Source: Tomocerus qinae (taxonomy: Eukaryota > Arthropoda > Collembola > Entomobryomorpha > Tomoceridae). Taken from it: a stretch of 64,000 nucleotides of DNA. Made by a program: the position numbers and the translations under genes. Below are positions 28,324 to 64,000 of the stretch, piece after piece; positions within the stretch are counted from its first letter, which is position 1; each line of letters starts with the position of its first letter. The stretch lies in contig CM034546.1 in assembly GCA_020055645.1 (NCBI GenBank), positions 3,534,001 to 3,598,000 of the forward strand. The letters run 5' to 3'. The notes under the pieces are model-generated. The model was not told where the DNA came from, did not search any database, and saw nothing but the letters and a program-made list of their open reading frames with translations.

Positions 28324-28548
28324 TAATTGTTTTAAATGTTACATTACATATAGGTACCTAGCCGAATCTTTATACAGCATACTTTTAGTAGCACAAATGA
28401 AGTACACGGCATTTTGAGTTCATAATTTTAATCAGTTGTATCAAGTCGTTGTAGATTTAAATTCCGGTATCAATTACTATTCAACTAATTGTTAAGTAAT
28501 AAAACATGTAGTTTTATTAAGAAGGATGTATTTAGGGGGTGCTAGGAT

Positions 28549-28700
28549 CAGGGTTGCGTTTTGTCCGGACAAAACTATTACTGTCCAGGATGAAATTAGT
28601 TTTGTCCACTTTCTATCCAGGACAAAAGTGGACAAAACTAATTTCTTCCTGGATAAAACCACTTTTGTCCACACCTTCCTATCCGGATACCGCAACCCTG
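28549..28700. mobile_element. hAT-type MITE, 152 bp, 8-bp target duplication
   Basis: Ends CAGGGTTGCG...CGCAACCCTG are perfect inverted repeats, flanked by GCTAGGAT on both sides (28541-28548 and 28701-28708). The interior alternates TTTTGTCC and GGACAAAA words and contains CCGGATAC. Overlapping open frames on both strands here are palindrome shadows. The same kind of sequence (CCGGATACTGCAACTGTGAC then TAGGAT) is embedded in the terminal repeats of the 8.1-kb transposon. Confidence 0.92.
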
Positions 28701-28708
28701 GCTAGGAT

Positions 28709-32751: not shown

Positions 32752-33975
32752 ATGGCCACGCTGGAATTTTTGAAACCCCTGGATTTATTTTTTAATATAT
32801 TTGGAGAAAAATTATGGGCGTGTCCTTTGGATTGGAACTCAGCCACCAAAAAATTGAAATTCACTTCAAATAAAAAGAAATTAGCGGTTTACTATTCCAT
32901 GTTTGTTATAATTGTGATACTTAACCTCGTAATGCTAGGAGGATTGACCTCTCAAATATTTTCTCCAACACTCAGTGTGGGGCACATTGTTATCCTAGCT
33001 TTCTTCACGATTATATTTTCCCTACCTTCTTTTTTCAGCTTCGTTCTTATCTCGAAATGGACCACAGTAATATCTTTATTTAATTACGTCTTTGTTCTTG
33101 ATGCAGGATTTGCTGGTAAGAAATTCAAAAACTAAATTGCAGCAATTAAAATTATATTTTTAATTTATATTTTGATTCCAGGAAAATATATGAAATCAGG
33201 ACCAATCAAAAATTCGAAACTCCTTGTCCATCTAATTTACATGACAATAAATCAAGCGTTATCAACGTCGTTTCTGCAATCTGTTCTGCTGGTATCATCT
33301 GAATTAAGTCCTCTCGTTGTTGTTTTGGAAACGTATCCGTCCTTGGATCACCTTGTTCTGCGTGTAGTTCTAGTTCCTATTTTAACTATTATTTTTGTCA
33401 ACTTATGGTATCCGCCGTTATTAACAGTGTACTTAGTTTTGCTCTATTCCTCATTTTATGGTTTTTGGTTGGAAGTTATGACTGCTGATATAACCAAGTC
33501 GACTAAATATTCACCTGCAAAACTGTTTTTCAAATCCCATCCACCGCTGCATGCCTATAAAATGTTGATGATAATAAATACCCAATTTATTAACGAATTC
33601 TTTTATGTACTTGCACCACCAATTTTCCTGGTTACGGCCCTTCTAAATATTATTTGTAACTTCGTTGCTGTGAAGATGCTCCACGTCATCCCGATGCCTG
33701 GCTACGCCTTTGCTCCAATACTGTCCGTAATGATATCATCGATTCAAGTTCTAGTATTCCCAAAGATAACTTTAATTCATTCAAAATCTGAAGCTTTCAA
33801 AGAAGAATGGCAAAACCATTCAAACATGCTGATCCGAAAGTATGTAAGAAGCTTCCTACCTTTAAAATTAAATGTTGGTCCTTATTTTATGATGAAGAAA
33901 TCCACTAGTTTTACATTTTTGGAAATTGTGGCTACACACACATCTAATGCCATAATATCTGTAAAGGTGCGCTGA
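32752..33975 (+). CDS. Gustatory-receptor-like 7TM chemoreceptor (intact, 2 exons)
   Basis: Exon 1 is 32752-33115 (donor GTAAGAAAT) and exon 2 is 33182-33975 (acceptor GATTCCAG). The phase-1 junction gives GFAGKYMKSGPIKN and a protein of about 385 residues. N-terminal MATLEFLKPLDLFFNIFGEK is followed by PLDWNSATKKLKFTSNKKK, the same P-x-W/D-then-basic layout as the other receptors here, then hydrophobic helices. The C-terminus has LNVGPYFMMKKSTSFTFLEI before the last helix, the usual GR end. The 66-bp intron lies in the first third, at the same phase as the first intron of the other two intact receptors. Its paralogue in unit B is over 90% identical by eye but split by a transposon. Ligand unknown. 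Confidence 0.85.
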
Positions 33976-37971: not shown

Positions 37972-40900
37972 TTAACAGCTTTCAATACTCCAAACACTTT
38001 GGGTAATATTGCCTGCAGGGATCCATGTAAATACCCCACGCCTTTCACTGTCTCTTTTATAAATGTCACTGGCATACAGTCGCTCTCCACTATAATAGAT
38101 ATTTTCTATGTAACAATATTCACCCATGGAGCGAATATTGAATGCCCCATTGCTGATTGCATAGCCAGGAGTCCACGTAAACACATATCTACTCTCTAAA
38201 TTGAATTCATATCGTGATACGAACAAATACTCTCCCCAGTGCAAGTTTTTGATAACGAAGCCTGTCATATTATCTCCAAACTTCCCAATTTCAAACTTCC
38301 AATAGCTTTCTTTGGTTTTACCACTATGCCAGGTAAACACTGTACGTCTCTCATGATCGTGTAAGAAATAACTTCCAGCAGCATGAAGATACTCATTGTA
38401 TTCAACATTCCGAATGCATTGCCTCTTGGCAAAAATTGCATTTCTGATGCATGCAGGATAATTATCTCTAGCATCGGCCAAGTCTTTCCTTAATTCAGTT
38501 TCAACATTTTTGTAACTTTCCTGATTCATTAAATTGTTCATTCTATGTGCTATTAAAACCGCTTCTAAACTGTCCATGTCACTGCTATTTATTTTCCTAA
38601 ATATTGCAAGATGAATTAAAATCGATTCCTGCATATAACCTTGTGACCCTGCATAGTCAAAAACTGTTTCAAACCCTTTTGTATCATAAATGTCATTAAT
38701 TACAGCTTCAATAGTTTTACGAAATATTTCTGCACTGTACCTGTAAACGACGTGAGCAAACTGTATAATTCCACCATTTGAATATAGGGCGTACAGGACG
38801 GTCTAATGGTGTAAAAACCTGGCTGGCTGTCCGCATTCTTGGGTTCGAATCCTAAGAGCGCCTCAGGTTGTGTGTTAGTTAGTCTGGAACTGGGAGAAGC
38901 TGTCTTTGCCGTATATTCGTTATTAGCATTGATTTGCCTATCTTGGTGACAATATGACTATCTATCCTTACCCTGTCTGCAGTGTGCAGATTGCTCTCTT
39001 GGTTAGGTGTACACTACGAGTTTACCTAGTGATATACTGGACTGAGGAGCACATGCGAAGGGATGCGGGAGGTTGCGATGACTGTCACACCTAATGTGGT
39101 CAGCTCACCTAATCTTGCCACCTAAGCACAGATAGGTAGAGTACGGGACTGTGTAGGGCTGTACCACATAATGGTTCAGTACCCCTCACCAAAGTCTCTT
39201 CGTGTAAGTCTGTACACTCAGTAAAGTTGTCCGGGAGTCACTGCAAGTAAGCCACCCCAGGCTTGAGCGGTAGCATAGCTCTACTACTATAGTAGATGCT
39301 GTGCTCTCCCCCTAACACACACACCATTTGAATATGTTTTACTGTTTATACTATCTGTCAGCCTTTTCCTAGTTACGGCCTCAATAATTTCTTGAAGATT
39401 TTGTGCAGCAGTCTCGTGTTTAGACCTAATTTCATTGTCAGTATTTTTATAATTTACCTCAGTCATCAAATGGTTCATATAGTGTGATAATGTAATTAAA
39501 CTGAAAATGTCGACGCCATCTGCAACTATTTTTCTCAAAATTATAAGATGGATAAGCATTGTTTCTGGCAGGTGTGATTGTGCGATTGAATATTCCAGAA
39601 GTTTATTGATCTCTACTTTGGTATAAATGTCATTGATTACATCTGACATAATTTTAAAGAACAGGTTTTTGCTATACAAGTAAACATTATGCACTAATTG
39701 TTGGTCTTCAGAATTTTCAAATGTTCCGTTCAAAATACTACTAATAAACTTTTGCTTTGTCAAGTGTTCAATATTCCCTAGAGTATTATTTGCACTAAGC
39801 TCAAATTCAGATCTAAGTTGACTATCTACATTTGAATAATTTTCCTGGTCCATCAACATTTTGACACTTGCAGCCATCTGGGCAACTTTTACAGCATCCA
39901 AACTGGTATTGTTTTTAAGAATTATTAAGTGAATCATGATGGTTTCGTGTAAGTGTGATTGAGCGGATGCAAATTTTAAAAGTGTTTGGAAATCGACTGT
40001 ATCACGAAGGGCATTAATTACACGAGTTATAATGATGCTAAACAAGTCCTTACTGTACAAATAAAGATGACGAACTAACTGCCTTTCTTTAGATTTGGAA
40101 AATGTTTTGTTTAATATACTTCCAATAATATCTTGTTTGGCAATACGTTCTAAGTTTACTTTTAGATCTTTGCTGATATTTTTAGCTTCAGATATTAAAA
40201 CTGTTTCGGTCTTCTCGCTACTTATGACCATTGATTGGAGAGCTTTCTCAAACATTATTAAATCATCTACTGTAGCATTTTGACCTATGTTTACTTTCAC
40301 CAATTCTTTAAGGATATAAAATCGGGACCTGGTTTGAAATTGTTCGGCAAATGCAATCATTTCTTGTGCTTTTTGAGGATATTTTATCAGATACTTAAAC
40401 GTTATTGATTGCAAAAATTTTTCATCCCCGTCCTTTAAGCTTTGGTATGCTCTCTCAAATTTAGAGGAACTGATTGCCTCGACAATTTCCTTTTCTAATT
40501 CTAAGCCAAAATGTTTTAGACATGTCAATTGCTCATGGGTTGTACTCCTTTTCATTTCTAAGTCTGCAAACCTTTCTTCATGTTGTTCAGTACAATGCAA
40601 TATGTGCACTTTCTTTTGTTTTAAGAAAAGGGAATTTATTTTTTGAAATTTTAACTCTTCTGCTTTTAATTTAGACTCAAATTCAAATAAGGTTGTGTTA
40701 CCAGCAGTTAACGAATCTAATTGAGAATTCAAAGATGTTATATCCTTTTCCAAGATTGAGAATTTCTCTTCCAAAGTAATCAATGTTTCGTTAATCTCCC
40801 CAATAATAGAAAATTCTTTTTCTTTAAATACCAATTGGTCAAACCTTAATTTTAATAACAGCAACCGTACTAACAAATGATAATTGCTTTCCTCGTGCTG

Positions 40901-41347: not shown

Positions 41348-43189
41348 ATAAATGGTGATGATTGATAACTAAGCAATGTATTTATTTTAATCATAACATG
41401 ACTGTCTCTTTTCTCAGCTAGTTAACTATAGTGCTCTTTTTAAACCAGTTCTTAAAATAGAATACCAGATCGCTAGCCTTCATCTTTCTGTGACATTTAG
41501 GTTTTACATAAAACATGAGCCTAGTATATTGTTGGGGTTTTGAAGGGTAAGAAACGAAACCAAAGCAACAGTAATAAAAATTACGCTTCGTGTAGAAATT
41601 GGAAATCAGTGCTGAACTTAATTTTTAGTGCCAATTTTTAGTGGCTTCCGTGTAGCTAAAACAGCGTTTACATTTCTTTTGTATGACAGAGGTTGCAGCT
41701 GCCACCACAATATTACTTATGCAATAACAGATATACTTGTATAATGTTTAGTATTAATTATATTAAAGGTGACCTCGACGATGATGTTATGTAAATAAAT
41801 TTCTTTACTTTTTGTGGTTCAGTTTTTCCTTATTCGCTTGATCTAAGTGTAAATGTAAATAATTTTCGATTCATACTTCTAAATACCATTAAATCATTAA
41901 TATTACATACAACATATCTCTATAAACGTACCTTAAACCTAAAATACAACATTACTCTTAAGTACTGCTTAACTACCTCTTTGCTCTATATTTATTACTT
42001 GCAAAAAACCTAGCACAATGGGTTAGAATTAAGTAAATTTCAAATGCACTTTGACCCGATTTTCATCGATAGACCGATGATTATTTAGTTAAACGGTTGT
42101 TGTTGAGTCGCATTGAATGCCGAACGAGGCTATAGTTGTATATGAGTGAGACTCCAAAGTCATAATAATACTATGATATTAAAATAAATAATGGATTCAT
42201 GACAATGTTATGTGTACTGATCATTGTCTAGTGCATTTTGCATTTGTGGTGGCTACTTTAAGTTATGACTTTCGGGACTGTTTCCGTACGCCATTCGACT
42301 TATCTCTCCTTTTCCTAGAATCCTATTTGAACACACCCTATGCTACTTTGAAGTAATAATATGATTTCCACAATTTCAATACACCCTCAACTACATTCGT
42401 GTGTCCCTTTTTTGGGTTATTTACAGGAAAAATTCCGAAAAACTACAAAATTAAAAATGCTTACCCAAATAGTTTGGCTCTTTATTCTTGAATTTAAAGG
42501 CTCCATCGTTATCAGATTTGGCGTCACGGTCTAACTCATTTGGTACTTCAACTGCTTGCCGCTGAAGAAGATAGTGAAATGGAATTAAAACAAAGTAGGA
42601 AAGCCAGAAAATTATTAGAATGAGACAAATAATGTGAAGCTCTTTTGTGGTTTAATTGGTCTCTTTTCCATGTATTATCTACATCCGCTAACCTTAGTAT
42701 CAAATACCGGTATCAACTTCTGAAGAAAATACTTTAGTTGTGTAAGTAATGTAATCTTGAAAATAAGCGATGTCTATATATTCATTTAGGCATTATAACT
42801 AATAATTCCAACTTCTAAGAATGCTAAATATCTAAATATGCATTACATAATAACATGTATGTGGATTATAACATTTAATATTTTTAACAAAAGTTTTTAT
42901 TGGAATTTGGAATATGTTCTACATATTATTATTTTACTTACATACTATTCATTAATTTATATCTAATTACTAATAAAGTGATTAAATTGCTGTAAAAGCA
43001 TATTCCAGAAGTTACTCATTTCCAATTTCTAAATAGTCAGTAGACACCAATTGTATGGCAATATCTTCCAGCTTTTCTACTTCTTGCGGAAGCTTGTTAA
43101 TAGAAAATTAATTATATCATTCTACTAGCACTAACCATCAAATCAATATTAACATCAATTAACTGAAACAAAAACAAATCTTGTCGGAC
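41348..43189 (-). other. Possible RTK tail exons, otherwise no gene
   Basis: Three exon-like pieces on minus follow the kinase fragment. One at about 43022-43108 reads KLPQEVEKLEDIAIQLVSTD then YLEIGNE. One at about 42475-42551 reads RQAVEVPNELDRDAKSDNDG then AFKFKNKEPNYL, with acceptor CTTCTTCAG and donor GTAAGC. One at about 41280-41336 reads EGLDNPQKRKNPIDGR after acceptor TTATTGCAG. The pieces could be a kinase C-terminal tail, but the joins do not all keep frame. The rest (41390-42460 and 42560-43000) shows nothing. Confidence 0.35.
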
Positions 43190-45464
<2,275 letters not shown>

Positions 45465-46361
45465 ATGGCCACGTTGGAATTCTTGAAACCTTTGGATTTA
45501 TTTTTTAATATATTTGGAGAAAAATTATGGGCGTGTCCTTTGGATTGGAACTCTGCAACCAAAAAATTGAAATTCACTACAAATAAAAAGAAATTAGCGG
45601 TTTACTATTCCATGTTTGTTGTAATTGTGTTTCTTAATCTCGTGTTGCTAGGAGGATTGACCTCTCAAATATTTCATCCAACACTCAGTGCAGGGCATGT
45701 TATTATCCTAGCTTTCTTCACGATTATATTTTCCCTACTTTCTTTTTTCAGCTTCGTTGTTATCTCGAAATGGAAAACAGTAATATCTTTATTTAATTAC
45801 GTCTTTGTTCTTGATGCAGGATTTGCTGGTAAGAAATTCAAAAACTAAATTGCAGCAATTAAAATTATATTTTTAATTTATATTTTGATTCCAGGAAAAT
45901 ATATGAAATCAGGACCAATCAAAAATTCGAAACTCCTTGTCCATCTAATTTACATGACAATAAATCAAGCGTTATCAACGTCGTTTCTGCAATCTGTTCT
46001 GCTGGTATCATCTGAATTAAGTCCTCTCGTTGTTGTTTTGGAAAAGTATCCATGTTTAGATAATCTTGCTCTGCGCGTATTTCTAGTTCCTATTTTAACT
46101 ATTATTTTTGTCAATTTATGGTACCCTCCGTTACTGTCAGTGTACTTAGTTTTGCTGTATTCCTCATTTTATGTTTTTTGGTTGGACGTTATGACTGCTA
46201 ATATAACCAAGTCAACTAAATATGCAGCTGCAAAACTGTTTTTCAAATCCCATCCACCGCTGCATGCCTATGAAATGTTGATGATAATAAATACCCAATT
46301 TAGTAACGAATTCTTTTATGTGCTTGCACCTCCAGTTTTTCTGGTTGCGGCCCTTCTAAAT

Positions 46362-47270
46362 GGCTCATCCCTTCTACCCGACAACCGACGGCACAGTACC
46401 CGACAGCCGACACCACCCTACCCGACAACCAAACCCACCGCACCCGACAACCGACGCCCCAGGACCCGACACCCGACGACACCCCACCCGACTACAGACA
46501 CCACCGGACCCGACAACCAAAACCACCCCACCCGACTACCGACGCCACCGGACCCGACAATTGAATTTACAAAAAATTTTAAAAAAATAACTCAATATTT
46601 CGGAATCTCAAAATCTTAGGGTGGACTAGTAAAACCATTTCGTCCACTAGGAATAACCGTTTTGTCCGGATGAAATACATTTTATCCGGATACAATCACT
46701 TCTCCCATTGGACAAAAACCATTTTATCCAATTTGTCGACACGTCCCTTTCCGGATACTGCAACTGTGACTAGGATTGTTTAATTAATGTTTAGAATAAC
46801 ATTTTATTTTAAAACTTAGAGGGTAGGGTAGACTATACTACAGTTAATTTTTTATCATTGAGAAATGTTTAAGGTTCAATGCATTGCATAATCCAACCCA
46901 TGTCTGCCCTTTTTCATACGATTATCAACTTATTCAGATAACCTTTAAAAAATAATCATTCATAAAAAAATGAGCTATATAACTGTTTGTTTCTTTTATT
47001 CAAGTAGGCTCTCCACACACGCCTGCATAGCAACCACTATCTAAATGCATGTTAAAAAATGTTTTACATATGGCTTTATTCCTTCCGAAGGTTAAGGCCG
47101 ATTTTTAAGCGACTTTCTTTTTGGAATCCTGGACTTTCGAGGAACAAACGACGGTACCTGGATCATTGATATCGTTGGGCCCGTGTGGTTGCTATGAAGA
47201 CGTGGAGAGCCTCCTTAAGCATTTCTTTTATTAAACCAATTTTTAATTATTTTATTTATTACTATTAATA
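46362..47270 (+). repeat. Left terminal inverted repeat with GC-rich subterminal minisatellite
   Basis: 46373-46560 is a tandem array of about 20-bp units built on CCCGACAACC and CCGACNCCACC, strikingly GC-rich against an AT-rich background. Next come the CCGGAT/GTCC block (46640-46780), a GAGGGTAGGGTAGACTATAC stretch, and GGCTCTCCAC words at about 47009 and, in reverse sense, about 47203. Proline-rich open frames over the array are artefacts of the repeat. Confidence 0.9.
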
Positions 47271-47346
47271 ACCGTTTTTTCCGGATGAAATACATCTTAT
47301 CCGGATAAAATCACTTTTCCCATTGGACAAAAACCATTTTATCGTG

Positions 47347-47736
47347 AATGATTTAACGTAAAGAAACTATCTCCCACTTTTATTGAATTTTAAAGCAAAT
47401 TATCAAATTCTTAGTAACGTAAAATATCTTGTATTCTCTTCGAGGCAAAACCTTAAGAATTCAGAGGAACGCATCTTTATTAATGAAGATTTACCAGTCA
47501 ATACCAGAAAAGCCAGACATCTCCTGAGAGAAAAACAAAAGGAAGCATATAACTGCGGCATGATACCAAAAATTGATTATAATAAAAACAGCATAATCGT
47601 AGATGGAATAACTTACTACGTTATCAACGGAAAACTGGAGAAACTCAATTTGTACGGGGACATGACTAGAAAAAAGACGAATGCTGATACCTTTAGTCAA
47701 CCGATGGACGTCCTACAACAAGAAAATTATGACTGA
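47347..47736 (+). pseudogene. LINE ORF1 C-terminal fragment
   Basis: The frame reads VFSSRQNLKNSEERIFINED, LPVNTRKARHLLREKQKEAY and KIDYNKNSIIVDGITYYV. The run IFINEDLP, then R..LLRE, then IIVDGxxY is the typical C-terminal part of CR1/Jockey ORF1 proteins, which bind the element RNA. The N-terminal portion is missing, being cut at the insertion boundary. It ends 45 bases before the ORF2 start. Confidence 0.75.
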
Positions 47737-47781
47737 CAATTTGCCGAAAATCTGCCTCAAATTGAAAACAAACCACACAAG

Positions 47782-49341
47782 ATGTTAAATATAGCTCATG
47801 TGAATATACAATCTGTGCGGAATAAGCAACACTTGGTTAATGACATCTTGTGCTTCGAAAACTACGATGTGTTATGTTTAACGGAAACATTCCTAAAACA
47901 AGGTATTCTATCTCCGGATTTTAATGGATACGAAATTATAAGGAAGGACCGTATGTATAAAGGTAATGGGGGTATTTCATTTATCATAAAAAATAGCTAC
48001 AAACACAAAGAGTACAAATTCAAAAATGAGCTATTAAATTTAAATAATAATATCGAATTTTCTGACATCGTAGCTCAACATAATTATAATAAGTCCTGTG
48101 TTATAGTTTGTATATATCGTAGCCCAATATATGACAAAGAAACATTAGACAATGATTTTCTGTCCTTTGACATGATATTAGCGGAACTAAATGATATAAA
48201 TAAGCCAATTTTTATTATGGGTGACTTTAATTTAAATGACAAATATATAAAAGGGCTAATGTTAAGATTTAATAGACTACTGAATAATTATTCCTTTAAG
48301 CAATTCGTAACAACCACTACTAGAGGAGATGCAATACTAGATTTATTTATAAGTAATTACAATGAGGATAATATAAGTGTAAGCGTTGAGGACAAAGGTC
48401 TAGCTGACCACGATCTAGTTAATGCGATAATTAATTTCCCTAAACAAAAGAAAACTAAAAAAATTATATCAGTACGTAAAATAAATGAAAAGACAATGGC
48501 TAATGTAATAGATTTTATGGATCAGTGCGATAATATAATTCACGAAAATAGTACACTCGATGTAAAAGTTGACAGTTTAGCCAATAACATATTATTAGGA
48601 CTAAATACATTCGCACCCTATAAAAATATAAAAATAAAAAATACTGGGATTCGTAAACACCTCTCAAAGGAGACTCGTGATTTAAAAAGGAAACGTAATA
48701 TAGCATACAAAATATATAAAAAATGCCCTAATAAAAAGAATAAAGAAATTGTATCAAATTTTAATAAAACCCTCAAGAAGGCAATTAAAATTGACACAAA
48801 AAATTACACGAATTATCAAGTAGAAACGATAGGGGTACATGCTGCACTCAAAAATATAGTGACAATAGGAAAGCAAAAAACTAATAATAAAATTGAAATC
48901 CAAGCCGAAACCTTAAACAACTACTTTGTAGACGTATGTACATTACCTGAAAGCGGTGTTGATTCCTGTCTTGTAACAATGCACCCTAGCTTACCTAAGG
49001 TGACCAGTACATTTCAAATAGACAATGTGTCTGTAAACGAGCTGCAATTGGCGTGGAAAATGATCAAAAAGAAAAATTCAAGGTCCCATGACTACCTGAA
49101 TCTGTGTCCCACTTATATGAAGTACCTATTACAAAGTAAAAATGTTCAATACTCTCTACTTAATATTATAAACCATAGCATTAATAATAATTATGTAAGC
49201 GAAAACCTAAAAATATCGAAAATTATTCCGGTAAATAAAATTGAGATACCTAATGATGTAAGTGACTATAGGCCTGTCGCAATTCAGACAATAGTTTCTA
49301 AAATAATAGAAAAATGCGTTATTTACTTACTTACTAACTGA
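47782..49341 (+). pseudogene. LINE ORF2: intact AP endonuclease, RT core deleted
   Basis: 519 codons from ATG 47782, directly downstream of the ORF1 end. The endonuclease motifs are all visible in order: HVNIQSVRNK, CLTETFL, RKDRMYKGNGGISFIIK, VCIYRSP, IFIMGDFNLND, TTTRGDAILDLFIS and LADHDLV. This is the apurinic/apyrimidinic-type nuclease that nicks target DNA for reverse transcription. The linker (LKRKRNIAYKIYKKCP) and the start of the RT (KISKIIPVNK, DYRPVAIQTIVSKIIEKCV) follow, and then the frame ends. Motifs A to C of the polymerase (D, FADD) are missing, because the next bases already encode the far C-terminus in another frame. A non-autonomous, internally deleted copy. Confidence 0.85.
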
Positions 49342-51082
49342 ACAAGCAAAAGAATCAGAAAATAATGTGTATAATATAAGTGATTTTAACAGTTACGATG
49401 AGACAATAGATGAGGTTGTAAGATTTGATTTGATGTAATTTTGATTTAACATATTAAAAAACATTATTTATGACGTAATACTCAAATGAAAGTGTGCAGA
49501 AGCAGTACAACTGCCTTCTTTTGAAGGAATCTGTTTCTTATGAAAATAAATATCCAATTTATCGACACGGCTCTTTCCGGATACCACAACTGTGACTAGG
49601 ATCGTTTAATTAATGTTTACAATAAAATTTTATTTTGAAACTTAGAAAGTGATATTGCTGGAATAAAAATTCCCCATTAAATACATTCCTATAAAGCGAA
49701 GGATTGTAAAATAGTAAAGATAGTTCAATTATTTTGTTGTTTTCTTTGTATCATCTGGTACCTAATGGCTTTTTTAACAATACTTCCATAAGGGTATTAT
49801 TGATTGTGGAAGTAAGTGTATACAATTAACTAATTTAAGCTTAGTTAGGTGATAAAGTTAAGTGATTTAAAAAACTCACATTGTAGCAATTAAATCTAGT
49901 ACGTTTTTTATAATAGATAGGCAAATAATATTAACACATTTTAGTTCCAATCCATAGAGCGTTTTTTCAAAGTAGATGGTAGTTTTCCTGACCATTTTTT
50001 CTCCTTCCAGCTGCTCTTGTTCTATTGTTCGCTCCTTTCGCTTCACAGGTTCTGTTGGAAATAGTAGCTTGAGTTTCGATGAAGCGAAAGGAACGAACAA
50101 TAAAACAGTTGATGGTCAGGAAAACTAAAAGGAATGCCATAATACCAATTTGTGTTAGCAATTATGCTATTCATTAAATATACACTTACCTGCCTCGTGG
50201 AAAAATGTACACTTATTTGTTGAACATTTTGGTTTGAAAATTAAATTGTATTTTTGGTCATTTAGTTTTGCATTCTATCTAAACCTAATTTTACAGTGAT
50301 ATACCTTATTGTACAAGGTCATCACTTATATAATCCCCCACCACTATTCAAATCGGTTAGAAAACACCGGGTAAAAATTTGAAAATAAAAGGTTAAAAAT
50401 ATTCAGAAATTCAGGCCACTTTCCAAATTTCCGAATGTTTCCTGTTCAGCAAGAATTTCATTTTGAAATATTATTTCCAGAATCATAACTAGCATGGCAT
50501 TTGTGATTTTTTCACCAATTCTTATCAAAAACGAAGAAACCGAATCGAATTTTTTCCAACTTTTTTGTCGATTTTGAATATCATTTTGATATCTAATCTC
50601 CATTGGGCTGTGGTGGTGGAGTATAATCAAATAATTGATGACCATGTATTATGTTTAAAGTTGAAAATATTTATAAAAATAATTTTCTTTTTTATCGTTG
50701 GACTAGAAATTATTTCTTTCTTACTATAGTTTTGAAATGCACTTGTAGTAACAAAAGCTGTAAATAAAAAAACCATTGGTTTAATTAAATGTCTATTGAT
50801 ATACTTCTATACTTTATTTGCAATAATTTTTAGTCGACAGTAGTGAAAAGATATTCCTAAAGTCTTAGTGGAAAACTGTCCAAATTGGTATATATTTGCC
50901 AGTCATTGATACAGCGTATATGATAGGCATAATATGTATAATACCCCCCTATCCATGGTGACCAAAATTGGCAAATCAAGCTGAATAGTTTGGTGATATA
51001 TTTAACCTTGGCAGGTAGGTGTTTTAAACATTCGGCGTTTTTGACAAGTCCAAATTAGTTTGATTGTACTTCTCTCCCAATC
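49342..51082. other. Transposon interior: LINE tail, inner terminal-repeat copy, hairpin
   Basis: 49342-49551 is the LINE end. 49552-49655 repeats part of the terminal repeat (TCTTTCCGGATACCACAACT). 49978-50130 is an imperfect hairpin (TAGTTTTCCTGACCAT against ATGGTCAGGAAAACTA, and TGTTCGCTCCTTTCGCTTC against GAAGCGAAAGGAACGAACA). 50131-51082 shows no recognised gene. The transposase promoter should lie in the last part, but no motif is clear. Confidence 0.55.
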
Positions 51083-53144
51083 ATGTCTGGAGTTAAGAAG
51101 GTTCTCACCACTGCTGATATAAATCGACTAAATGAAGGTCGAAAAAGAAAAATAAACATAGGAGCAAGTGAGGATTCCCAAAGAAACTTTCTTAGGAATT
51201 GTGGCCTTGAGTACACAAGTCGTAATGGAATGGTTCGCGAAGAAATTGTAAAGGAACCTTTGGTAATTTCAGTACGTTAAATTATGTCGAATTTACTTAG
51301 CAATGAAATAGATAAAAGATAATTGTAGCATGAACTAATCTAGGAAAAAGCTTGCGAAAAAAGATGTCATAAAATAGGATGCATGTTATCACGACAAGAG
51401 AAACAGAGAATAAGCGATGATTTCTGGAGAGTATCAGATGAAAATTATAACAGACAATCGAACATTCTTTTGTCTCCTATGGAATGGTCAGTACCAATTA
51501 AACGGACCACAGACATTGAAATAAGCCGATGCGGAGCCAGTTATTATTACTTTCTAATTAACCAATATGGAATGAGGGTCCCGTGCTGCGCCGCAACATT
51601 TATGAACGTATTTTCAATCGGTAAACAAAGATTAGGGACTGTACGAAAGAAGAAAAAGGCTGGGGTTTTATCGATAGAAGATCAGAGAGGATCTCAACTG
51701 AATAGAGATCGGAAGAAAACAAATATGTAATAATGGAACATATTCAGTCGTTTCCTACCTACCTCTCTCACTATTCCCGAGCCGTAAGTCCAATACCGTC
51801 AACGATAGTCGGTCTTCTCCAATACTTTCCAATTTTGTATATAAAATAATTAATTGACTTAGAACGGGAATCCAGAGAGGTTGTACTTACAACCGGATTT
51901 AAATGCATCAAAGATGTTCCGAATGTTTGTTGATAAATATGGAGATTTCTACAGCGATTTCGAGCATTTGTATAAACACACCCTACGGACAACAAAATTG
52001 TCTTTTGGCTTGCCAAAATCGGACACTTGTAACGTTTGTGACAAGTTAAAATCAAGATTGGGTAATTATGATGCAAGCCAGGAGCAGGAAATTAGAGAAA
52101 CTGAAATACAGTTACAAAATCATCACGTTGCTGCTGAAGGTGGATTTGCAGAAATGAAGAAGGATATTCACAGAGCTAAAGCGGAACCAAATTTCATAGT
52201 CTTGTGCCTGGATATGCAGCAAATTCTTTTATCCCCAAGACTTAGTAATCAGGAGATGTACTATTTAAGAAAATTTTCGTCTTACAACCTCGCTGTAACG
52301 TCTCCTACCACCGATGACTCTGTAATGTACTTTTGGAGCGAAAATAAAGGAAATCGAGGTCAAATTGACATAGGATCTTGCTTATTAAATTATAACGTTC
52401 AAAAATTTAAAAAACTTAGGGAAGGAGAAACACGAACGCTGTGCTTATGGTCGGATAGATGTTCCGGCCAGAAAAACAATTATTCTACCGTCTGCTTATG
52501 GAAGTTTTTTTTACACAACGGTTATTTCACAGAAGTATGTTTCATTTATATCTGAGAAATTTTTATTTTTCGATTCTTAATGATAGCTATTTATTTGATT
52601 GAATATTCATTAGGCGAGACAAAAATTCTTGGTTTCGGGTCATACTTTTTTTGTCATGTGACCGCCATTTTGCGGCTATAGAACGATGTCAAAAAACGCA
52701 ACAGTCCATACGCCAGAAGATTGGGTAGACGTAATTAGAAAATCTAGAGTTGCAAACCCATTCACTGTAGTTCAAATGGGCTTTAACAATTTCAAAAATA
52801 CTGCAGTTTCAGCGGAACTAATTCCTAATCCAACCACTTTTAAGGTTAGTCAATACCACTGTATCGGAATGGAAGTCAATGAGCCTTCTGTATTGATGAC
52901 TAAAACGTCCCATGATGCCAGAGAACCGTGGATGAATCATAATATTTTTAACCCGTATTCGCAAAATATAAGAATTATTAACAGAGTAAGTTGGGAGCCT
53001 CATTGGTTAGTTAATCACAATATCCCCAATGCTTACGAAAATGAGATTCCGATATCTGATGCCAAAAAGAATGACATTCGTAAAATGATTGAATATCTGC
53101 CTACTTTGAAACAACAATTCTTTTTGCTGCTTTTAAATTCATAG
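51083..53144 (+). pseudogene. Transposase-like gene, DUF7869-type RNase-H-like (4 exons, frame broken)
   Basis: Exons 51083-51262, 51344-51783, 51878-52534 and 52614-53144, with GT/AG borders and introns of 79-94 bp. In order: a short N-terminus (KKVLTTADINRLNEGRKRK), a Cys-rich patch (ACEKRCHKIGC), then DFWRVSDENYNRQSNI and VPCCAATFMNVFSIGKQRL, IMEHIQSFPTYLSHYSRA, and a CxxC zinc knuckle (KSDTCNVCDKL). The likely catalytic core is FIVLCLDMQQILLSPRLS, YNLAVTSPT, MYFWSENKGNRGQIDIGSC and LCLWSDRCSGQKNN, followed by FLVSGHTFF, CDRHFAAIER and a C-terminal domain. The LDMQQ and WSDRCSGQ aspartates resemble a DDE/RNase-H-like site. The family assignment is from memory. One frame change near 51700 and two compensating ones near 52660-52685 break it; intact length would be near 600 residues. 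Confidence 0.72.
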
Positions 53145-53631
53145 GTACTTTCATATTTAAATCTTGTTCTGGATTGATGATAGTTGTTCAAGGGTTAATT
53201 TACGCTCTTGGCTACATGTAACTTGTTTATTTGGTTGTTATGTTGTAAATAAATATTATATATTTTTATTGAGTTCTGGTTGCTTGTTCTTCGTCCCAGC
53301 CTATCATATATGATACTACTCATATTTAGACATTTTCACACTTTTTCACTTACGAACGATAAAGTCTAGCATGATACTAATTAATCAATTACTCAATTAG
53401 TATTAACTTAGTTAACATAATATGATCTGTGTTCCCGTGTATCTTCCTAAAACAATTGTTTCTGTTTTCAAATTTGGACATTGAAATCACCAATGTTATC
53501 GGATAATGTCATGAATTAAAGTTCAGGAGTATGACATAAAACGATGGCGACGTGACAATAAATAAATTTAATTAAAATACGATTAAATAAATTTACAACA
53601 GCAAATTTTACTTGTGATTTATTTGCATGAA
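53145..53631. other. Transposon 3' interior, no gene
   Basis: AT-rich sequence between the transposase-like gene and the right terminal repeat. The run AATAAATATTATATATTTTT at about 53248 would suit a polyadenylation region, but this is weak. Confidence 0.35.
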
Positions 53632-54502
53632 AATAGTAATAAATAAAATAAATAAAAATTGGTTTAATAAAAGAAATGGTTAAGGAGGCTCTCCACTTCT
53701 TCATAGCAACCACACGGGCCCAACGATATCAATGATCTAGGTACCGTCGGTACCGTAAAAATCGGCCTTAACCTTCGGAAGGAATAAAGCCATATGTAAA
53801 ACATTTTTTAACATGCATTTAGATAGTGATTGCTATGCAGGCGTGTGTGGAGAGCCTACTTGAATAAAAGAAACAAACAGTTATATAGCTCATTTTTTTA
53901 TGAATGATTATTTTTTAAAGGTTATCTGAATAAGTTGATAATCGTATGAAAAAGGGCAGACATGGGTTGGATTATGCAATACATTGAACTTAAAACATTT
54001 CTCTATGATAAAAAAATTAACTGTAGTATAGTCTACCCTACCCTCTAAGTTTTAAAATAAAATGTTATTCTAAACATTAATTAAACAATCCTAGTCACAG
54101 TTGCAGTATCCGGAAAGGGACGTGTCGACAAATTGGATAAAATGGTTTTTGTCCAATGGGAGAAGTGATTGTATCCGGATAAAATGTATTTCATCCGGAC
54201 AAAACGGTTATTCCTAGTGGACGAAATGGTTTTACTAGTCCACCCTAAGATTTTGAGATTCCGAAATATTGAGTTATTTTTTTAAAATTTTTTGTAAATT
54301 CAATTGTCGGGTCCGGTGGCGTCGGTAGTCGGGTGGGGTGGTTTTGGTTGTCGGGTCCGGTGGTGTCTGTAGTCGGGTGGGGTGTCGTCGGGTGTCGGGT
54401 CCTGGGGCGTCGGTTGTCGGGTGCGGTGGGTTTGGTTGTCGGGTAGGGTGGTGTCGGCTGTCGGGTACTGTGCCGTCGGTTGTCGGGTAGAAGGGATGAG
54501 CC
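53632..54502 (-). repeat. Right terminal inverted repeat
   Basis: Reverse complement of the left repeat. Differences are few: for example a block of about 38 bp (around left 47107-47145) is missing here, and a handful of single substitutions sit in the inner half. The GC-rich array at 54305-54490 matches the left array base for base by eye. Confidence 0.92.
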
Positions 54503-54828
54503 CTTCTAAATATTATTTATAACTTCGTTGCTGTGAAGATGTTCCGATGCCTGGCTACGCATTTGCTCCATTATTATCTGTAATGATATCATCAATTCAA
54601 GTTCTAGTATTCCCAAAAATATCTTACATTCATACAAAATCTGAAGCTTTCAAAGAAGAATGGCAAAACCATCCAAACATGCTGATCCGAAAGTATGTAA
54701 GAAGCTTCTTGCCCTTAAAATTAAATGTTGGTCCTTATTTCATGATGAAGAAATCCACTTGTTTTACATTTTTGGAAATTGTGGCTACACACACATCTAA
54801 TGCCATAATATCTGTAAAGGTGCACTGA

Positions 54829-55856: not shown

Positions 55857-58095
55857 GAATTTGAATTTATTGCTGAGATATCACCCTCATCAGAGGTCAT
55901 TACAAATATCAGAGTATATACATAAGATAATTTCCTTGGTAACTTGCTTTTCACATTTAAATTAGTCCCGAAGCTACATCTTCAATACAGGAATAGTTGC
56001 AATTATTATTACTAGTATGGTCGTGTATACACTCATCAATTTGTAGATCAAGTAAATATTTTTTTACTTTTGTCTTAAAGCTATTAATATTATTTATATT
56101 TCTCAGTGGCTCAGGAATACTGTACCATAGCTTAACACCATTAAAGATAACAGTTCGTTTAAAAGAGCAGGAGTTACCTTGGTAATTAGGTAGTGAATAC
56201 TGATTACTTCTAGTTACAATAGTATTAATATAATTAAAATCTATGTAATCCTTAAAGTAGGGAGGGCAATTGTTATTAAAAATCTGGAAAGCTAACTTTA
56301 AAAGTTCAAATTGGTACATATAATTAGGGAACAACCACTTTAATGAGTTTGAGATATCGTATTTAACAGAGTCATATTTCTTATAATCTAAAACAAAGCG
56401 ACCACAACGGCGGATCAACTTTTCCACTAGTTCTATATTAAATTTAGGTGCAGTACCCCAAATAGTGCTCATATAATGAATAATAGGCATTATAAAGGTA
56501 TTTATTGCTGCTTTACGGTTAATACAAGATAAATAGGGCTGTAGAGGATAAAGGGACCACAGTACTGAATTACAACGCCTGTTAACATCTGTTATGTGCG
56601 CAGTCCATTTCAATTCTGAGTCAATTATAAGTCCTAAACATTTTATCTTATCAACAGACTTAATTATAGTATCATTTACCTTAAAACTAACATTTCCAAG
56701 AGATTTAATTATATGAGGTCTACCAACTAACATAAACTGAGTCTTATCTACATTTAATTCCATTCTGTTAACAGACATCCAATCAAGTACACTCAACATA
56801 TCTAGTTCGATTGAATTAATAAGTGCAGATATACTATCTGGTGGGCCAGCAATGCTCATAGTAGTATCATCTGCAAATAGAATACTTAAACTATTTTTTA
56901 TAGCTAACGGCAGGTCATTAATGTATATTGAGAATAAGATAGGCCCTAATACACTTCCTTGGGGCACTCCAAGGGTAGTATATTTAACCTCGGATACATC
57001 ACTATCACTTAAATAAACAAATTGTCCTCTATCCTCTAGATAAGAATCAAACCAATGTGGGTTAATCCCATACCATCCAAGTTTAGTCAGAAGTAGCTCA
57101 CGGCAGATTTTATCAAAGGCTTTGCTTAGATCAAGTGATAAAACTAAACAAATATTACCAATATCAATATTTTGATATAAGAAGTCTGTTAATGCTACTT
57201 GTGCATGTGAAGTCGATTGTTTAGCTCTAAATCCAAATTGTTGGTTGCATAGAATTGAGTTTTTATCTAGATATTTAACCAAATTAGCATAAACACATTT
57301 TTCAATAATCTTAAGAAGGAAAGGTTGATTACTAACAGGTCTTAAGTCCTTAGGTACCTGTACATTAGGTACTTTAGGCGATGGAATTACTTTAGAAATC
57401 TTCAAGTTATTAGGAACAACACCACTTAAAAAACTGTTATTAACAATATCTAATAGTTCAGCACAGACATTCGGGGACTGCATCGTGTAGTGTAGCATTA
57501 TAGGAGATAGTAAGAGACAATCATTATTTTTACCTTGATTATTTTTACAACTTTTCCATGCTTTATATAAACTAGACATATCAATTGGACCGACAGTGAA
57601 GTGTATATCAGGTAATAAAGGTACCATAGGATTACTTGGAAATTCAGGATAAAGACTAGAATTATTCATTGTACTTATACTTATGAAATAATCATTAATA
57701 TCATTAGCTGGTACTGTTATCATATCATAGTTTTTGGGCTTAAAGTTAATAAGAGACTTGATACCATTTGCAGGACCTTTTTTCTCAATAGCTAAGTTAA
57801 CATGATTTTTTGTATCAATATACATTAAAGATTTTACCTTAAGTTTTAATTCAGCATGCTTAGCTATATTTGACTCAGTAGGATATTTACATTTTAATTT
57901 ATAAGCGTTATCACGTTCACGTTTCAAACTTAAAGTGGATTCCGTGAAGGTAAACTTTTTAGGATAATCAACATAAGATTTAGAAATTACTGGGGCAGCT
58001 TTATCAAAGATTGTGGTTAGAGTTTCACAGAATTTTTCCACACGTAAATTAAGGTCGAAACAATTATTTGGAAATACTACATCTATGGTTAGTTC
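55857..58095 (-). mobile_element. 5'-truncated CR1/Jockey-group LINE
   Basis: Contains most of ORF2 (55957-58041 and some open codons before it), about 90 bp of 3' UTR, and a short tail read on plus as TTGAATTTGAATTTATTG at 55857. The endonuclease domain is missing at the 5' end (about 58095). It lies in the unit B intergenic region and is absent from unit A, so it arrived after the duplication. Confidence 0.85.
55957..58041 (-). CDS. LINE ORF2 reverse transcriptase (5'-truncated, open frame)
   Basis: 694 codons without a stop. RT motifs by residue: 219-240 (IPSPKVPNVQVPKDLRPVSN), 265-275 (CNQQFGFRAKQST), motif A at about 299-311 (LVLSLDLSKAFDK), motif B at about 357-372 (LGVPQGSVLGPILFSI), motif C FADD at 389-392, motif D at about 426 (LNVDKTQFMLVGR). 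The C-terminus has KRTVIFNGVKLWYSIPEPLR, characteristic of this LINE group. The catalytic aspartates are present, so the enzyme part looks whole, but the endonuclease needed for target-primed insertion is absent and the first Met is simply the first one in the surviving part. Open codons continue upstream (ELTIDVVFPNN). A copy with no decay over 2 kb is young. Confidence 0.85.
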   Translation of the reverse strand: MEKFCETLTTIFDKAAPVISKSYVDYPKKFTFTESTLSLKRERDNAYKLKCKYPTESNIAKHAELKLKVKSLMYIDTKNHVNLAIEKKGPANGIKSLINFKPKNYDMITVPANDINDYFISISTMNNSSLYPEFPSNPMVPLLPDIHFTVGPIDMSSLYKAWKSCKNNQGKNNDCLLLSPIMLHYTMQSPNVCAELLDIVNNSFLSGVVPNNLKISKVIPSPKVPNVQVPKDLRPVSNQPFLLKIIEKCVYANLVKYLDKNSILCNQQFGFRAKQSTSHAQVALTDFLYQNIDIGNICLVLSLDLSKAFDKICRELLLTKLGWYGINPHWFDSYLEDRGQFVYLSDSDVSEVKYTTLGVPQGSVLGPILFSIYINDLPLAIKNSLSILFADDTTMSIAGPPDSISALINSIELDMLSVLDWMSVNRMELNVDKTQFMLVGRPHIIKSLGNVSFKVNDTIIKSVDKIKCLGLIIDSELKWTAHITDVNRRCNSVLWSLYPLQPYLSCINRKAAINTFIMPIIHYMSTIWGTAPKFNIELVEKLIRRCGRFVLDYKKYDSVKYDISNSLKWLFPNYMYQFELLKLAFQIFNNNCPPYFKDYIDFNYINTIVTRSNQYSLPNYQGNSCSFKRTVIFNGVKLWYSIPEPLRNINNINSFKTKVKKYLLDLQIDECIHDHTSNNNCNYSCIEDVASGLI

Positions 58096-61000
58096 TGCCA
58101 GTAGGCAGAAGTCAAGAGTTTTATATTGAAATCATTACTATTAGATAAACGGCAAAAGTTAGTCACGTGATAATTCCGTTTGTATGTTTGCACTTCTGTG
58201 TGTTGATTTGCCGCAATTCTAAAACGCCAACCACGAACCACAATAGTGCCTTTAAAGCGGCAAATCCCTACATGTCCGAACCAGAAGAACTTCAAGCCAG
58301 TGTACATATCAAAATTACGCACTTTGCGATCAATAATTTCACAATAGGTAATGCAATCCTCAGCGCAATTAAGCCTGGTCAGTGCTGTGTGGTTAGTCGG
58401 GGACTTTCTCTCATTTTCCCCTTCTCTTTTTTAGAATTAATTGGCACACTACAGCATTCTTCTATATAGAGATTAATGATTATAACTATGAACCACTGTA
58501 GGTATACAGTTTTGTGCGAATTTATTTTGAAGATAAGAGAAGCGATTTTAAATTAAAGTACGTTAAAGCTAAGATGATTAAAAAAATTTTGACCCCGACT
58601 CTTGATTCTCCTATTTTGAAATAATAAGGATAGAATACAGGAAGTCTTGATTACTGTGTGGTGTGGTAATGAAAACGTCGTGAGTTTAGCTGGTATGGAA
58701 CGTTTTAAGATTATTAATTTTCATTCAGACCTGAAATTGCTAACTTATATTGTAATGGGTAAAAGTCACCAAGATGTCACCAGTCGATTTCATCATCAAA
58801 ATATATAATAATTGGGCTGAGTGACGCATAAACCTTTGGAGTTTGAAATAAATTAAAAACTGTGCAACCCGCTGATAGGAACAAGCGCTGGTGGAAATTA
58901 TGTATTTCACGGTATCCAAACTACAAAAATTTGTTCCAGTTTTCGGGAAATTTTTTTTCCCGGTTTTGGGGTACGAATAAATATATACAATTGCGCCACG
59001 CGCAAAAAGTTTGTGGCATTTAGAAGGGGAAAATTAATAAGAATAACCAATAACATTCCGCGAAATCGTAGAAACTTTTTGCTGTTTAGAGGCAAAAAAG
59101 TCGTTTGAAGGATAAAATTTCGTGCAGAGCAAGAAAAAGTCGACCAGCACTGAGCGTCGAGGAAAGAACAACTAGAAAGCAATTAGCAACACAATACAAA
59201 ATGTCCAATTTGTGATGGTGCTTTATTGTTTTCATTGTTTCCTTTGTCTTTTGGGAAACTTTGAACGGGCAATATGTATAGTGGTGGTTCAGAGTACTGT
59301 AGACCCTAAGCCACGTGATCATGGTAGGTAACAGGTGTAAGTTACTGATGCCCAAATTTCAATTTAAAACGTTATATAGTTGAAGTAAGATAATGGTTGG
59401 ACAAATAGCTTTCACAAACCTCTTTTACTTCAACTCAAAAAGTTAATTCGGTCTTAGTATAGGGCGAAGTTTTGGAATAAGTTTTTACTCTCTATCAATG
59501 TTAAATCTCTACCTCTGGCCCACTAAATTAGAAACCGTGAAAAGGTCAGTTGGAATTAAAATAAAATATCTAGGGAAAATTGGAATTTGTATGGCACACA
59601 CATAGATCTGGAAAGGATTAATATCTATTTCGTAACTCCCACGATAGCAAAAAACCTTCTAATTCTCATTTACAGCTACCTTAAACTGGCATTGAGTATT
59701 CATGTTACAATACAAAAAACTCCACGGAACAATTTATTCCATGATTCACACAAGAACATGATTTTCCATATTCTCATTAAATAACTTCCTACCAGGCTCA
59801 ATGGGCTTCTGAAAAGTAGTTAAGAATGTTAATATTAACCTGCTGGTTTGTTGTATAAACATTTTCTATGTTTAAATTGCATTCTCCCAAAAGGAGATGG
59901 AACATTACACATTTGAATCACATGTTGAAGAAAATTCAACCAAACCAAGCAACGTGGGACTGAAGACCAATACCCAAATGACACATCAGTACACTAAGGT
60001 TAGTTGACAAAATTTTCTGTACCTCTAGATATAAAAATTTAAATCAAATCATTGAACTGAATTAAATCCAGAAAATATAAGGCAAGTTATTATACGCACA
60101 ATTTTTTGTTCCCTGTCAATGGAATATTTATACTATCTTTCAACTATTAATTTTATCTATTATATGAATGCATATTTTTGTATTGCCTTATTCTGTTTTA
60201 GGAATAGCCTGGAATGAGAATGATAAAGTCACAATTATGATGATCTATGAACCTGTAAAGTACATTTTTTTTAAATTCGTCGATAACAAATTAAAGGCTT
60301 AGGGATGATTATTATTATTATTTTGAGTTAAGTTGTCTACACTGTGCTCGATTCTTCAAAATGTTGTATGTTCTCTTTTTAATAAGCTTCAACTTTATTT
60401 GTTCTTTATTTCTTGCTACGTATTTATTGTTTCCTACGTATTAATATTTATAGTTTGTTACAATTTCAAAGATGTTTCTATATAATATAACGTTACCCTT
60501 ACTAGGAATTTCCACAAAATGAAATAAAACACCAACAGCTGCATGTAGAAAACCAAATTCAGTATAGGAATATTTATTGCCTTCCTACATATTTATGCAT
60601 CCAGAAATTAAAATTGAGAGGCGATGACAAACAGACACCTCAAAATGAGTTTGGACCGGTATATTGCGAAATTCTAAATGCATTTGATAGAAAATTATCT
60701 TCATTTGGATGAAGGAGTCAGTATAAATAATTAAAACATTAACAAACATATTACTTCATTATTCCATATCTTGTCATAATCTGAGGCGTTTTCCAACTTT
60801 AGCAGATGCACTTGCATACATTTGCACGATGCATTTTCTTTAAAGGTTATCATATATATTACCCTCTGATATATTTCGGTGAGATTAGGTAAATACATTT
60901 CCCTGCTTAGCACAACTGTAGTTTCATTGAAATAATGACACACACCTTTATTGTAATTAATTTAATTGACCGTGAATAAATGATTAGTAAATTATAACTT

Positions 61001-62124: not shown

Positions 62125-64000
62125 TTAAAAACTTTCAATACTCCAAACACTTTGGATAATATTGGTTCCTGGGATCCAAGTAAATACCCCACGCCTTTCA
62201 CTGTCTTTTTTATAAATGTCACTGGCATACAGTCGTTCGCCACTATAATAGATATTTTCTATATAGCAATATTCACCCATGGAGCGAATATGAAATCCAC
62301 CATTATGGATAGCAGTGCCAGGCGTCCACGTAAAAACATATCGACTCTCTAAATTGAATTCATATCGTGATACAAACAAATATTCTCCCCAGTGCAAGTT
62401 TTTGATACTGAAACCCCTCACACCTCCAAAAATCTTAACGTCAAATTTCCAATAGCTTTCTTTAGTTTTACCACTATGCCATGTAAACACTGTACGTCTC
62501 TCATGATCGTGTAAGAAATAACTTCCAGCAGCATGAAGGTACTCATTGTATTCAACATTGCGAATGCATTGTCTCTTGGCAAATATTGCATTTCTGATGC
62601 ATGCAGGATAATTATCTCTAGCATCGGCCAACTCTTTCCTTATTTCAGTCCCAACATTTTTGTAATTTCTCTGATTCATCAAACTGTTCATGTTGTCTGC
62701 TATTAAAACCGCATCAACACTGTCCATGTCACTGCTATTCATTTTCTTAAATATTTCAAGATGAATAAAAATGGATTCCGGAAAATAACTTTGTGACGTT
62801 GCATAGTCATAAAGCGTGTCAAACCCTTTTGTATTATAAATGTCATTAATTACATCTGCAATGATTTAACGACACAATCCTGTATTGTATTTGCAAATGA
62901 CATGCGCAAACTTCAAATTTTCAATATTTGAATATGTTTCGTTATTTATACTGTCTGTAAAGCTCTGTCTAGCTAAGGTCCTAATAATGCCTTGAAGATT
63001 TTGTGCAGCAGACTCGTATTGAGACTTAATTTCAGTATCAACATTTTTATAATTTACATTAGTCATCAAACGGTTTATATTGTATGATAATGAAATTAAT
63101 TTGAACATATCAAAGATATTTGTATCTATTTTCCTTAGAACTGTAAGATGGATAAAAATAATTTCTGGCAGACATAATTGTGCGTTTGAATATTCCATAA
63201 GTTTGTCGAACTCTATTTTGTCATAAGTCGCATTGATTGCCAGTGCCGTGATATTTAAAAACAGGTCTTTGCTATACACGTAAACATCATGCACTAATTG
63301 TTGATCTTCAGAATTTGCAAATGTTTCGTTCAATATACTGCTAATAAACTTTTGCTTAGTCATAATATCTTCAAAATTAGCTAGAGTATTATTTGCACTT
63401 AGTTTGAATTGACACCTAATTTCAGTATCTATATTTTTATAATATTTCTGGCGAATCAAATTATTGATACTGGTTGCTAATTGGAATAATTTTACAAGAT
63501 CCATACTGGTGTCGTTTCTAAGAATTGCTAAATGAATCACTGCGATTTCGAAGTATGGTTGTGTTGATGCAAATTGCAAAAGTGTTTCAAAATCAACTGC
63601 ATCATGAAGGTCAATAATTACGCTAGTTATAATGTTCCGAAACAAGTCTTTACTGTAATAAAGATTGCGAACTAACTGTTTTACTTCAGAATTGGAAAAT
63701 GACCCATGTAGTATACTTCCGAAAAGTTTTTGTTTGGCCAACCTTCCTAAATCTGATTTTATTTCTCTGCTAATATTTTTAGCTTCAGATATTAAAAAGG
63801 TTTTGGTTTTTTCGCTACCTATGACCATTGATTGGAGAGATTTTTCTAACAGTATTAGACCATCTACTGTAGCGTTTTGACCTTTGCTTAATTTTACCAA
63901 TTCCTTAAGGATATAAAATCTGGGCTTAATTGTTCGATATTTCTGCGCAAACGCAATCATTTCTTGCACCTTTTGAGGATACACGGTAAAATATTTAAAC
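62125..64000 (-). pseudogene. Secreted helical-repeat plus beta-trefoil-like gene, copy B (partial, one internal stop)
   Basis: Paralogue of 37972-41245, truncated by the window edge: the frame is open to 64000 (FKYFTVYPQKVQEM against FKYLIKYPQKAQEM). The helical repeats (EVKQLVRNLYYSKDLF, EDQQLVHDVYVYSKDLF, PEIIFIHLTVLRKI) and the three VFTW units (HDHERRTVFTWHSG, NLESRYVFTWTPG, DSERRGVFTWIPG) are all present. A single TAA at 62866-62868, next to a slightly divergent stretch (CKYNTGLCR), interrupts one continuous frame. No SINE is present here. Either it is a recent pseudogene or the stop is polymorphic or an assembly error. The trefoil part is about 90% identical to copy A. Confidence 0.78.

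Follow-up and report, generated by a model that had tools for sequence, protein, structure and literature searches.

A stretch of 64,000 nucleotides from the collembolan Tomocerus qinae (GenBank assembly GCA_020055645.1, contig CM034546.1, positions 3,534,001 to 3,598,000 of the forward strand; hereafter the window, with coordinates counted from its first letter) contains an 8.1-kb element at 46362-54502. The element begins with GGCTCATCCC, ends with GGGATGAGCC, and is a transposon with terminal inverted repeats (TIRs) and a putative DUF7869 transposase. An original prediction, made from the letters of the window, had placed the element at exactly these coordinates. It had also named it a DNA transposon, and the inverted ends, the target duplication, and the presence of a gene with three acidic sites between them uphold that claim.

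The left TIR is 905 bp long (46362-47266, + strand), and the right TIR is 871 bp long (53632-54502, - strand). When the two are aligned, 858 of 906 columns are identical, with 36 gap columns (gaps of 35 and 1) and 12 mismatches, in agreement with the long, near-identical inverted repeats that had been described. The termini had also been described as matched over 10 bp. They are matched, but the length was an underestimate, as the outermost 486 bp of both TIRs are identical. If the 12 mismatches fell evenly, the chance of all of them landing in the inner part would be ~6e-5, so the outer part has probably been kept alike or is under constraint. Each end is composed of 14 bp, 8.4 copies of a GC-rich 22-bp unit that match one another at 73%, and ~700 bp without such an array. 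The tandem arrays are found at 46376-46560 in the left tip (+ strand) and at 54304-54488 in the right tip (- strand). This layout of tip, array, and array-free stretch is the plan of Foldback elements. By analogy with Galileo, the 22-bp arrays may hold repeated binding sites for the transposase. A 114-bp stretch in the inverted repeat resembles (65%) a short element at 28542-28708, which has the ends CAGGGTTGCG/CGCAACCCTG and flanking CTAGGAT direct repeats and looks by eye like a hAT-like miniature inverted-repeat transposable element.

The element is flanked by two copies of the 9-bp sequence CTTCTAAAT, at 46353-46361 and 54503-54511 (both + strand). A paralogue of the interrupted gene is located ~13 kb upstream of the insertion and is open over 33136-33975. 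This paralogue has a single CTTCTAAAT (33640-33648, + strand) and no insert. The joined flanks of the element align to it over 490 columns, of which 451 are identical (92%), and the alignment runs straight through the site. A single copy in the uninterrupted paralogue supports both the insertion and the 9-bp duplication, as had been claimed for this receptor-like exon. In the window, CTTCTAAAT has four occurrences on the + strand (two at the element, one in the paralogue, and a further one at 41876) and two on the opposite strand. The length of 9 bp follows from taking the inverted repeat as the end of the element. Since GCC precedes both CTTCTAAAT copies, including the final three bases of the element extends the direct repeat to 12 bp (GCCCTTCTAAAT). 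Judged from this one copy, the duplication may thus have uneven ends and be as long as 12 bp.

The name "receptor" comes from the original prediction, and the interrupted gene itself has no Pfam match. The duplicated receptor-like genes lie at 33136-33975 and 45438-54828. The interrupted copy is 10 bp shorter than its paralogue ~30 bp past the insertion and, with these bases missing besides the insertion, is apparently a pseudogene. The 8-mer CCCTTCTA is common to the element tips (46369, 54488) and the target site (46351/54501). It occurs six times in the window on both strands, five of them at the element or the paralogue. This reflects either chance or a target preference and is not used as evidence here.

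Besides a later retrotransposon, the only gene recognised in the element is a + strand gene at 51083-53144. As the original prediction had proposed, it is spliced. Splice signals and similarity point to a model of four exons (51083-51262, 51344-51783, 51863-52534, and 52614-53144), separated by introns of 81, 79, and 79 bp that are all GT-AG. A possible polyadenylation signal, AATAAA, is found ~100 bp past the stop (53248-53253, + strand). Exon 3 is the longest open stretch in 49647-53631, with 230 codons, compared to a maximum of 192 among 500 dinucleotide-matched simulated sequences. The reading frame is broken in two regions, near 51.72 kb in exon 2 and at ~52.65-52.70 kb in exon 4. This copy of the element therefore probably makes no full protein and is dead.

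The protein used as a query is the spliced read-through, with X at the frame breaks. Against Pfam PF25273 (DUF7869), it scores 24.7 bits (E 2e-5), with residues 392-483 matching model positions 53-141 of 192. The likeness to DUF7869, which the original prediction had named, is borne out at a score just under the curated cut-off. The exons scanned singly against Pfam reach at best E 0.04, and exon 3 alone does not match DUF7869. Exon 3 extended by 15 residues from the start of exon 4 matches at E 0.0064. The DUF7869 signal thus rises once exons are joined, which supports the splice model. Shuffled window proteins (two tested of three made) did not match DUF7869. In Pfam, the model is listed under unknown function, whereas the present case connects the family with the ends of an element.

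A distant relative was found in bacteria. Seven sets of prokaryote genomes, which overlap a little, contain DUF7869 in 0/5, 1/396, 0/398, 0/64, 1/142, 0/326, and 0/329 genomes. The positives in the sets of 396 and 142 are one and the same genome (G167), and none of 14 named control genomes encodes the domain. The bacterial open reading frame (ORF) is free of introns, spans 714 codons from its ATG, and is located on a 4.9-kb contig (L027). This contig is read as bacterial because an Rpn-family nuclease gene adjoins the ORF (PDDEXK_2 E 5.3e-54; TIGR01784 E 3.9e-50). Inverted repeats of 47 bp, 94% complementary, enclose the ORF at L027 1258-1304 and 3701-3747, and the last 8 bases of the ORF overlap one of the arms. 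The DUF7869 match of the protein reaches 82.2 bits (E 4.8e-23). Over that stretch it also matches DDE_Tnp_ISAZ013 (PF07592) at 26.1 bits (E 5.4e-6; cut-off 26.9), and in the genome search the score for this model was 28.2 bits, above the cut-off. Beside the bacterial element are 25-bp direct repeats containing GCAACGGCCTTAAA (L027:3817-3901).

The bacterial and window proteins can be aligned directly. By phmmer, with the search space set to 1000, the total score is 19.2 bits (best stretch 14.6; E 2e-5), while 1000 shuffled versions of the window protein reach at most 3.8 bits. The alignment is colinear over three acidic sites, with a spacing of D81D40D in the bacterial protein and D80D42D in the window protein, where the last number is accurate to one or two owing to the frame break. 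BLASTP of the bacterial protein against exon 3 alone gives E 3e-05 in a single comparison. In the window, the first two sites are the Asp codons 52211-52213 and 52454-52456 of exon 3, and the third is the Asp codon 52660-52662 of exon 4 (all + strand). The original prediction had likened the aspartates in LDMQQ and WSDRCSGQ to an RNase H-like core. Both have counterparts in the bacterial DUF7869 protein, which lies between inverted repeats and matches the ISAzo13 DDE (Asp, Asp, Glu) model.

The third catalytic residue is best read as the Asp in CDRHF, since the bacterial relative keeps this Asp and has a Ser at the Glu position seven residues on. That Glu, in FAAIE (codon 52681-52683), had been the first choice for the third residue and is now less preferred. 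Lying 49 residues past the second Asp, it may still be the alternative, as two sequences are insufficient to settle the matter. The C/DxxH motif that Mutator-like elements have between the second and last acidic sites has one match in the window protein, CDRH on the third acidic site itself, and none in the bacterial relative.

A model of ISAzo13 transposases was built from 15 proteins out of 28 loci (L029-L056), one source of which was a genome search with a match in 20 of 247 genomes. The other 13 loci, mostly fragments, were left out, while L041 and L042 were kept without the strict motif. The model finds the bacterial DUF7869 protein at 21.6 bits (E 1e-4), compared to 3.7 bits for the best of 400 shuffles. 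The likeness covers the second and third acidic sites. At the third, the Glu of the ISAzo13 IEHR motif aligns onto the Asp of VDR in the bacterial protein, so that the families differ in having Glu (IEHR) or Asp (VDR/CDR in DUF7869) at this position. An hhalign comparison of ISAzo13 with the two DUF7869 proteins gives a probability of 73.8% and E 2.9e-5 (one comparison) over 84 columns.

The element is likely a cut-and-paste DNA transposon that is moved by its own DUF7869 protein. This reading draws on the inverted ends, the 9-bp duplication seen against the empty site, the sole recognised gene other than the retrotransposon, and a bacterial relative that lies between inverted repeats and matches ISAzo13. 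DUF7869 is best read as a putative family of DDD (three Asp) transposases near ISAzo13 and Zator, though here with Foldback-like ends and a duplication of 9 bp. More broadly, DUF7869 could be the transposase family of a DNA transposon superfamily found in bacteria and animals. Its DDD core (~D80D42D) would branch near ISAzo13/Zator, and yet the animal element combines the 9-bp duplication with ends of the Foldback type, features otherwise known from Mutator-like elements (MULEs). This broader proposal is a serious possibility that falls somewhat short of probable, and the claim that the superfamily is new is about equally tentative.

Several observations weigh against these conclusions. The DUF7869 score of the window protein is under the Pfam curated cut-off of 26, and two single-sequence structure models were useless (mean pLDDT, the predicted local distance difference test, of 33.7 and 36.2) and gave no support for a fold. 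Even at E 100, the window protein is not among the matches of the ISAzo13 model, so the link from ISAzo13 to this protein runs via one bacterial protein. The duplications of Zator and ISAzo13 are 3 bp, compared to 9 bp here. DUF7869 is rare in the sampled prokaryotes, with one positive genome; the bacterial element is single-copy in that genome, and any duplication directly at its ends is at most 4 bp long. Gene and termini are linked in just two elements, one eukaryotic and one bacterial, and no relative was found in viral contigs, nor by pattern in genome contigs. In the viral contigs, exon 3 had no match, while exon 4, the bacterial protein, and a two-sequence alignment matched 3, 11, and 19 stretches, none of which was confirmed as a relative. 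A first motif pattern was found in no viral stretch and in 16 stretches of genome contigs, where the best tblastn hit of the four exons had an E of 0.12. A second pattern was found in nine viral stretches, with no exon match at E up to 1. The bacterial protein, the one query used against plasmids and phages, had no match there. In the Protein Data Bank (PDB), exon 3 and the spliced protein had two matches each, all with E above 1.

The original prediction had called this an apparently undescribed type, and that claim is not established. Rehavkus, the MULE outgroup from Repbase in PMC6446971, already joins 9-bp duplications with terminal tandem repeats. The passages on it describe arthropod and annelid hosts, a minisatellite before the 3' end, a PHD finger, and TIRs of 26-400 bp (PMC6446971), and one family, Rehavkus-1_TC, is 9.5 kb long and carries tandem arrays of 164-bp units within its inverted ends (PMC10218199). 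Tetris, for which no transposase was found (PMC4079207), and Tm1, which encodes FLYWCH and MULE domains (PMC3169594), are also described with Foldback-like ends and duplications of 8-10 bp. The element could therefore be Rehavkus or another Foldback- or Mutator-like type, with DUF7869 as the Pfam name for all or part of its transposase. Such a reading overlaps in mechanism with a DUF7869 transposase acting on its own ends and differs on novelty and lineage. The 9-bp duplication, the 22-bp arrays at both ends, and the arthropod host, which the Lig_chan gene of the window would also suggest, all fit it. Judged against the published descriptions, it is nevertheless unlikely. No PHD or other known DNA-binding Pfam domain was found in the element proteins scanned, and the six-frame open stretches and the joined N-terminal part contain no PHD (C4HC3), C2H2, CCHC, SWIM, RING, BED, THAP, or FLYWCH-like pattern. 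The match of the bacterial relative is to ISAzo13, and the MULE model was reported for neither this relative nor the spliced window protein (limit E 10, with most matches above ~0.1 dropped). The TIRs of ~0.9 kb exceed the range listed for Rehavkus, though the Rehavkus-1_TC arrays, with their 164-bp units, must be longer than this range too. Foldback is an architecture rather than a single lineage. Differing transposases occur within Foldback-like ends (PMC3169594), including the P-type transposase of Galileo, whose terminal repeats were proposed as transposase-binding (PMC4079207). Long inverted repeats with internal repeats are shared by Tetris, Tm1, Galileo, and the present element, whereas none of the three is described with the DUF7869 protein found here.

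A further alternative is that the DUF7869 gene is cargo and the ends are moved in trans by another, MULE-like transposase, as with gene-carrying Pack-MULEs. The duplication and long ends suit this alternative, since MULEs are described with 8-11 bp duplications and long TIRs. In addition, the gene is broken and is tied to such ends in one eukaryotic case. However, the gene is itself transposase-like, its distant bacterial relative likewise lies between inverted repeats, and no other transposase domain was detected among the element ORFs scanned, which did not include every short ORF. The cargo explanation is thus considered improbable. Least probable is that the element is a Zator, the eukaryotic counterpart of ISAzo13. 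The bacterial relative does match PF07592, and Zator is paired with ISAzo13 in passages of PMC10045372 and PMC5718144. The same passages give 3-bp duplications for both, a length that disfavors Zator, and the window protein matches neither PF07592 nor the ISAzo13 model built here. No element with a protein of this kind was found in the titles, abstract starts, and passages of the literature searched. The name DUF7869 was likewise absent from that literature, which most subscription papers, Repbase Reports, and Dfam fall outside of.

The mode of action of DDE transposases in general provides a framework for transposition by the DUF7869 protein. The cysteine-rich N-terminal part would bind the tips of the element, perhaps at the 22-bp repeats, as proposed for Galileo. 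A predicted RNase H-like core with a DDD triad (third Asp in CDRHF) would cut the ends, and the transposase would then join them to target strands 9 bp apart. Repair by the host would create the 9-bp duplication. The present copy would have jumped into the receptor-like exon and decayed since through frame breaks and the insertion of a retrotransposon.

If the superfamily proposal is correct, duplication length and end architecture would not track transposase lineage. A Pfam domain that so far lacks a known function would gain one, and annotators could recognise DUF7869 genes as transposons rather than host genes by their ends, duplication length, and catalytic sites. The findings also suggest an additional link between transposons of animals and those of bacteria, as well as a case in which a 9-bp duplication and Foldback ends accompany a transposase that is not Mutator-like.

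The retrotransposon inside the element is a later fragment of ~2.2 kb at 47344-49550 (+ strand) and is not part of the transposon proper. It is a non-long-terminal-repeat retrotransposon, or long interspersed nuclear element (LINE), with an endonuclease (Pfam E 1.2e-5); by eye, most of its reverse transcriptase is missing. Without it, the element is ~5.9 kb long. The LINE sits within an incomplete, directly oriented copy of the terminal repeat, which it splits into 47261-47343 (a 93% copy of 46646-46728) and 49551-49646 (a 91% copy of 46725-46820), both on the + strand. This internal copy was considered as the end of a second, nested element and rejected, as the copy lacks a partner of its own beyond the two ends. 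Downstream of the LINE and ahead of the gene, a hairpin with imperfect arms was noticed by eye at 49980-50127, around GCTCCTTTCGCTTCA / TGAAGCGAAAGGAAC.

Outside the element, a second LINE at 55957-58131 (- strand) encodes reverse transcriptase in a long frame (RVT_1 E 6.8e-31) and shares 34% identity over 225 residues with the LINE inside the element. Two proteins that are very similar by eye are encoded on the - strand at 37972-38802 and 62125-62865; they have the repeated motif SYWKF...FTWTPG and no Pfam match. A Lig_chan gene is also present in the window.

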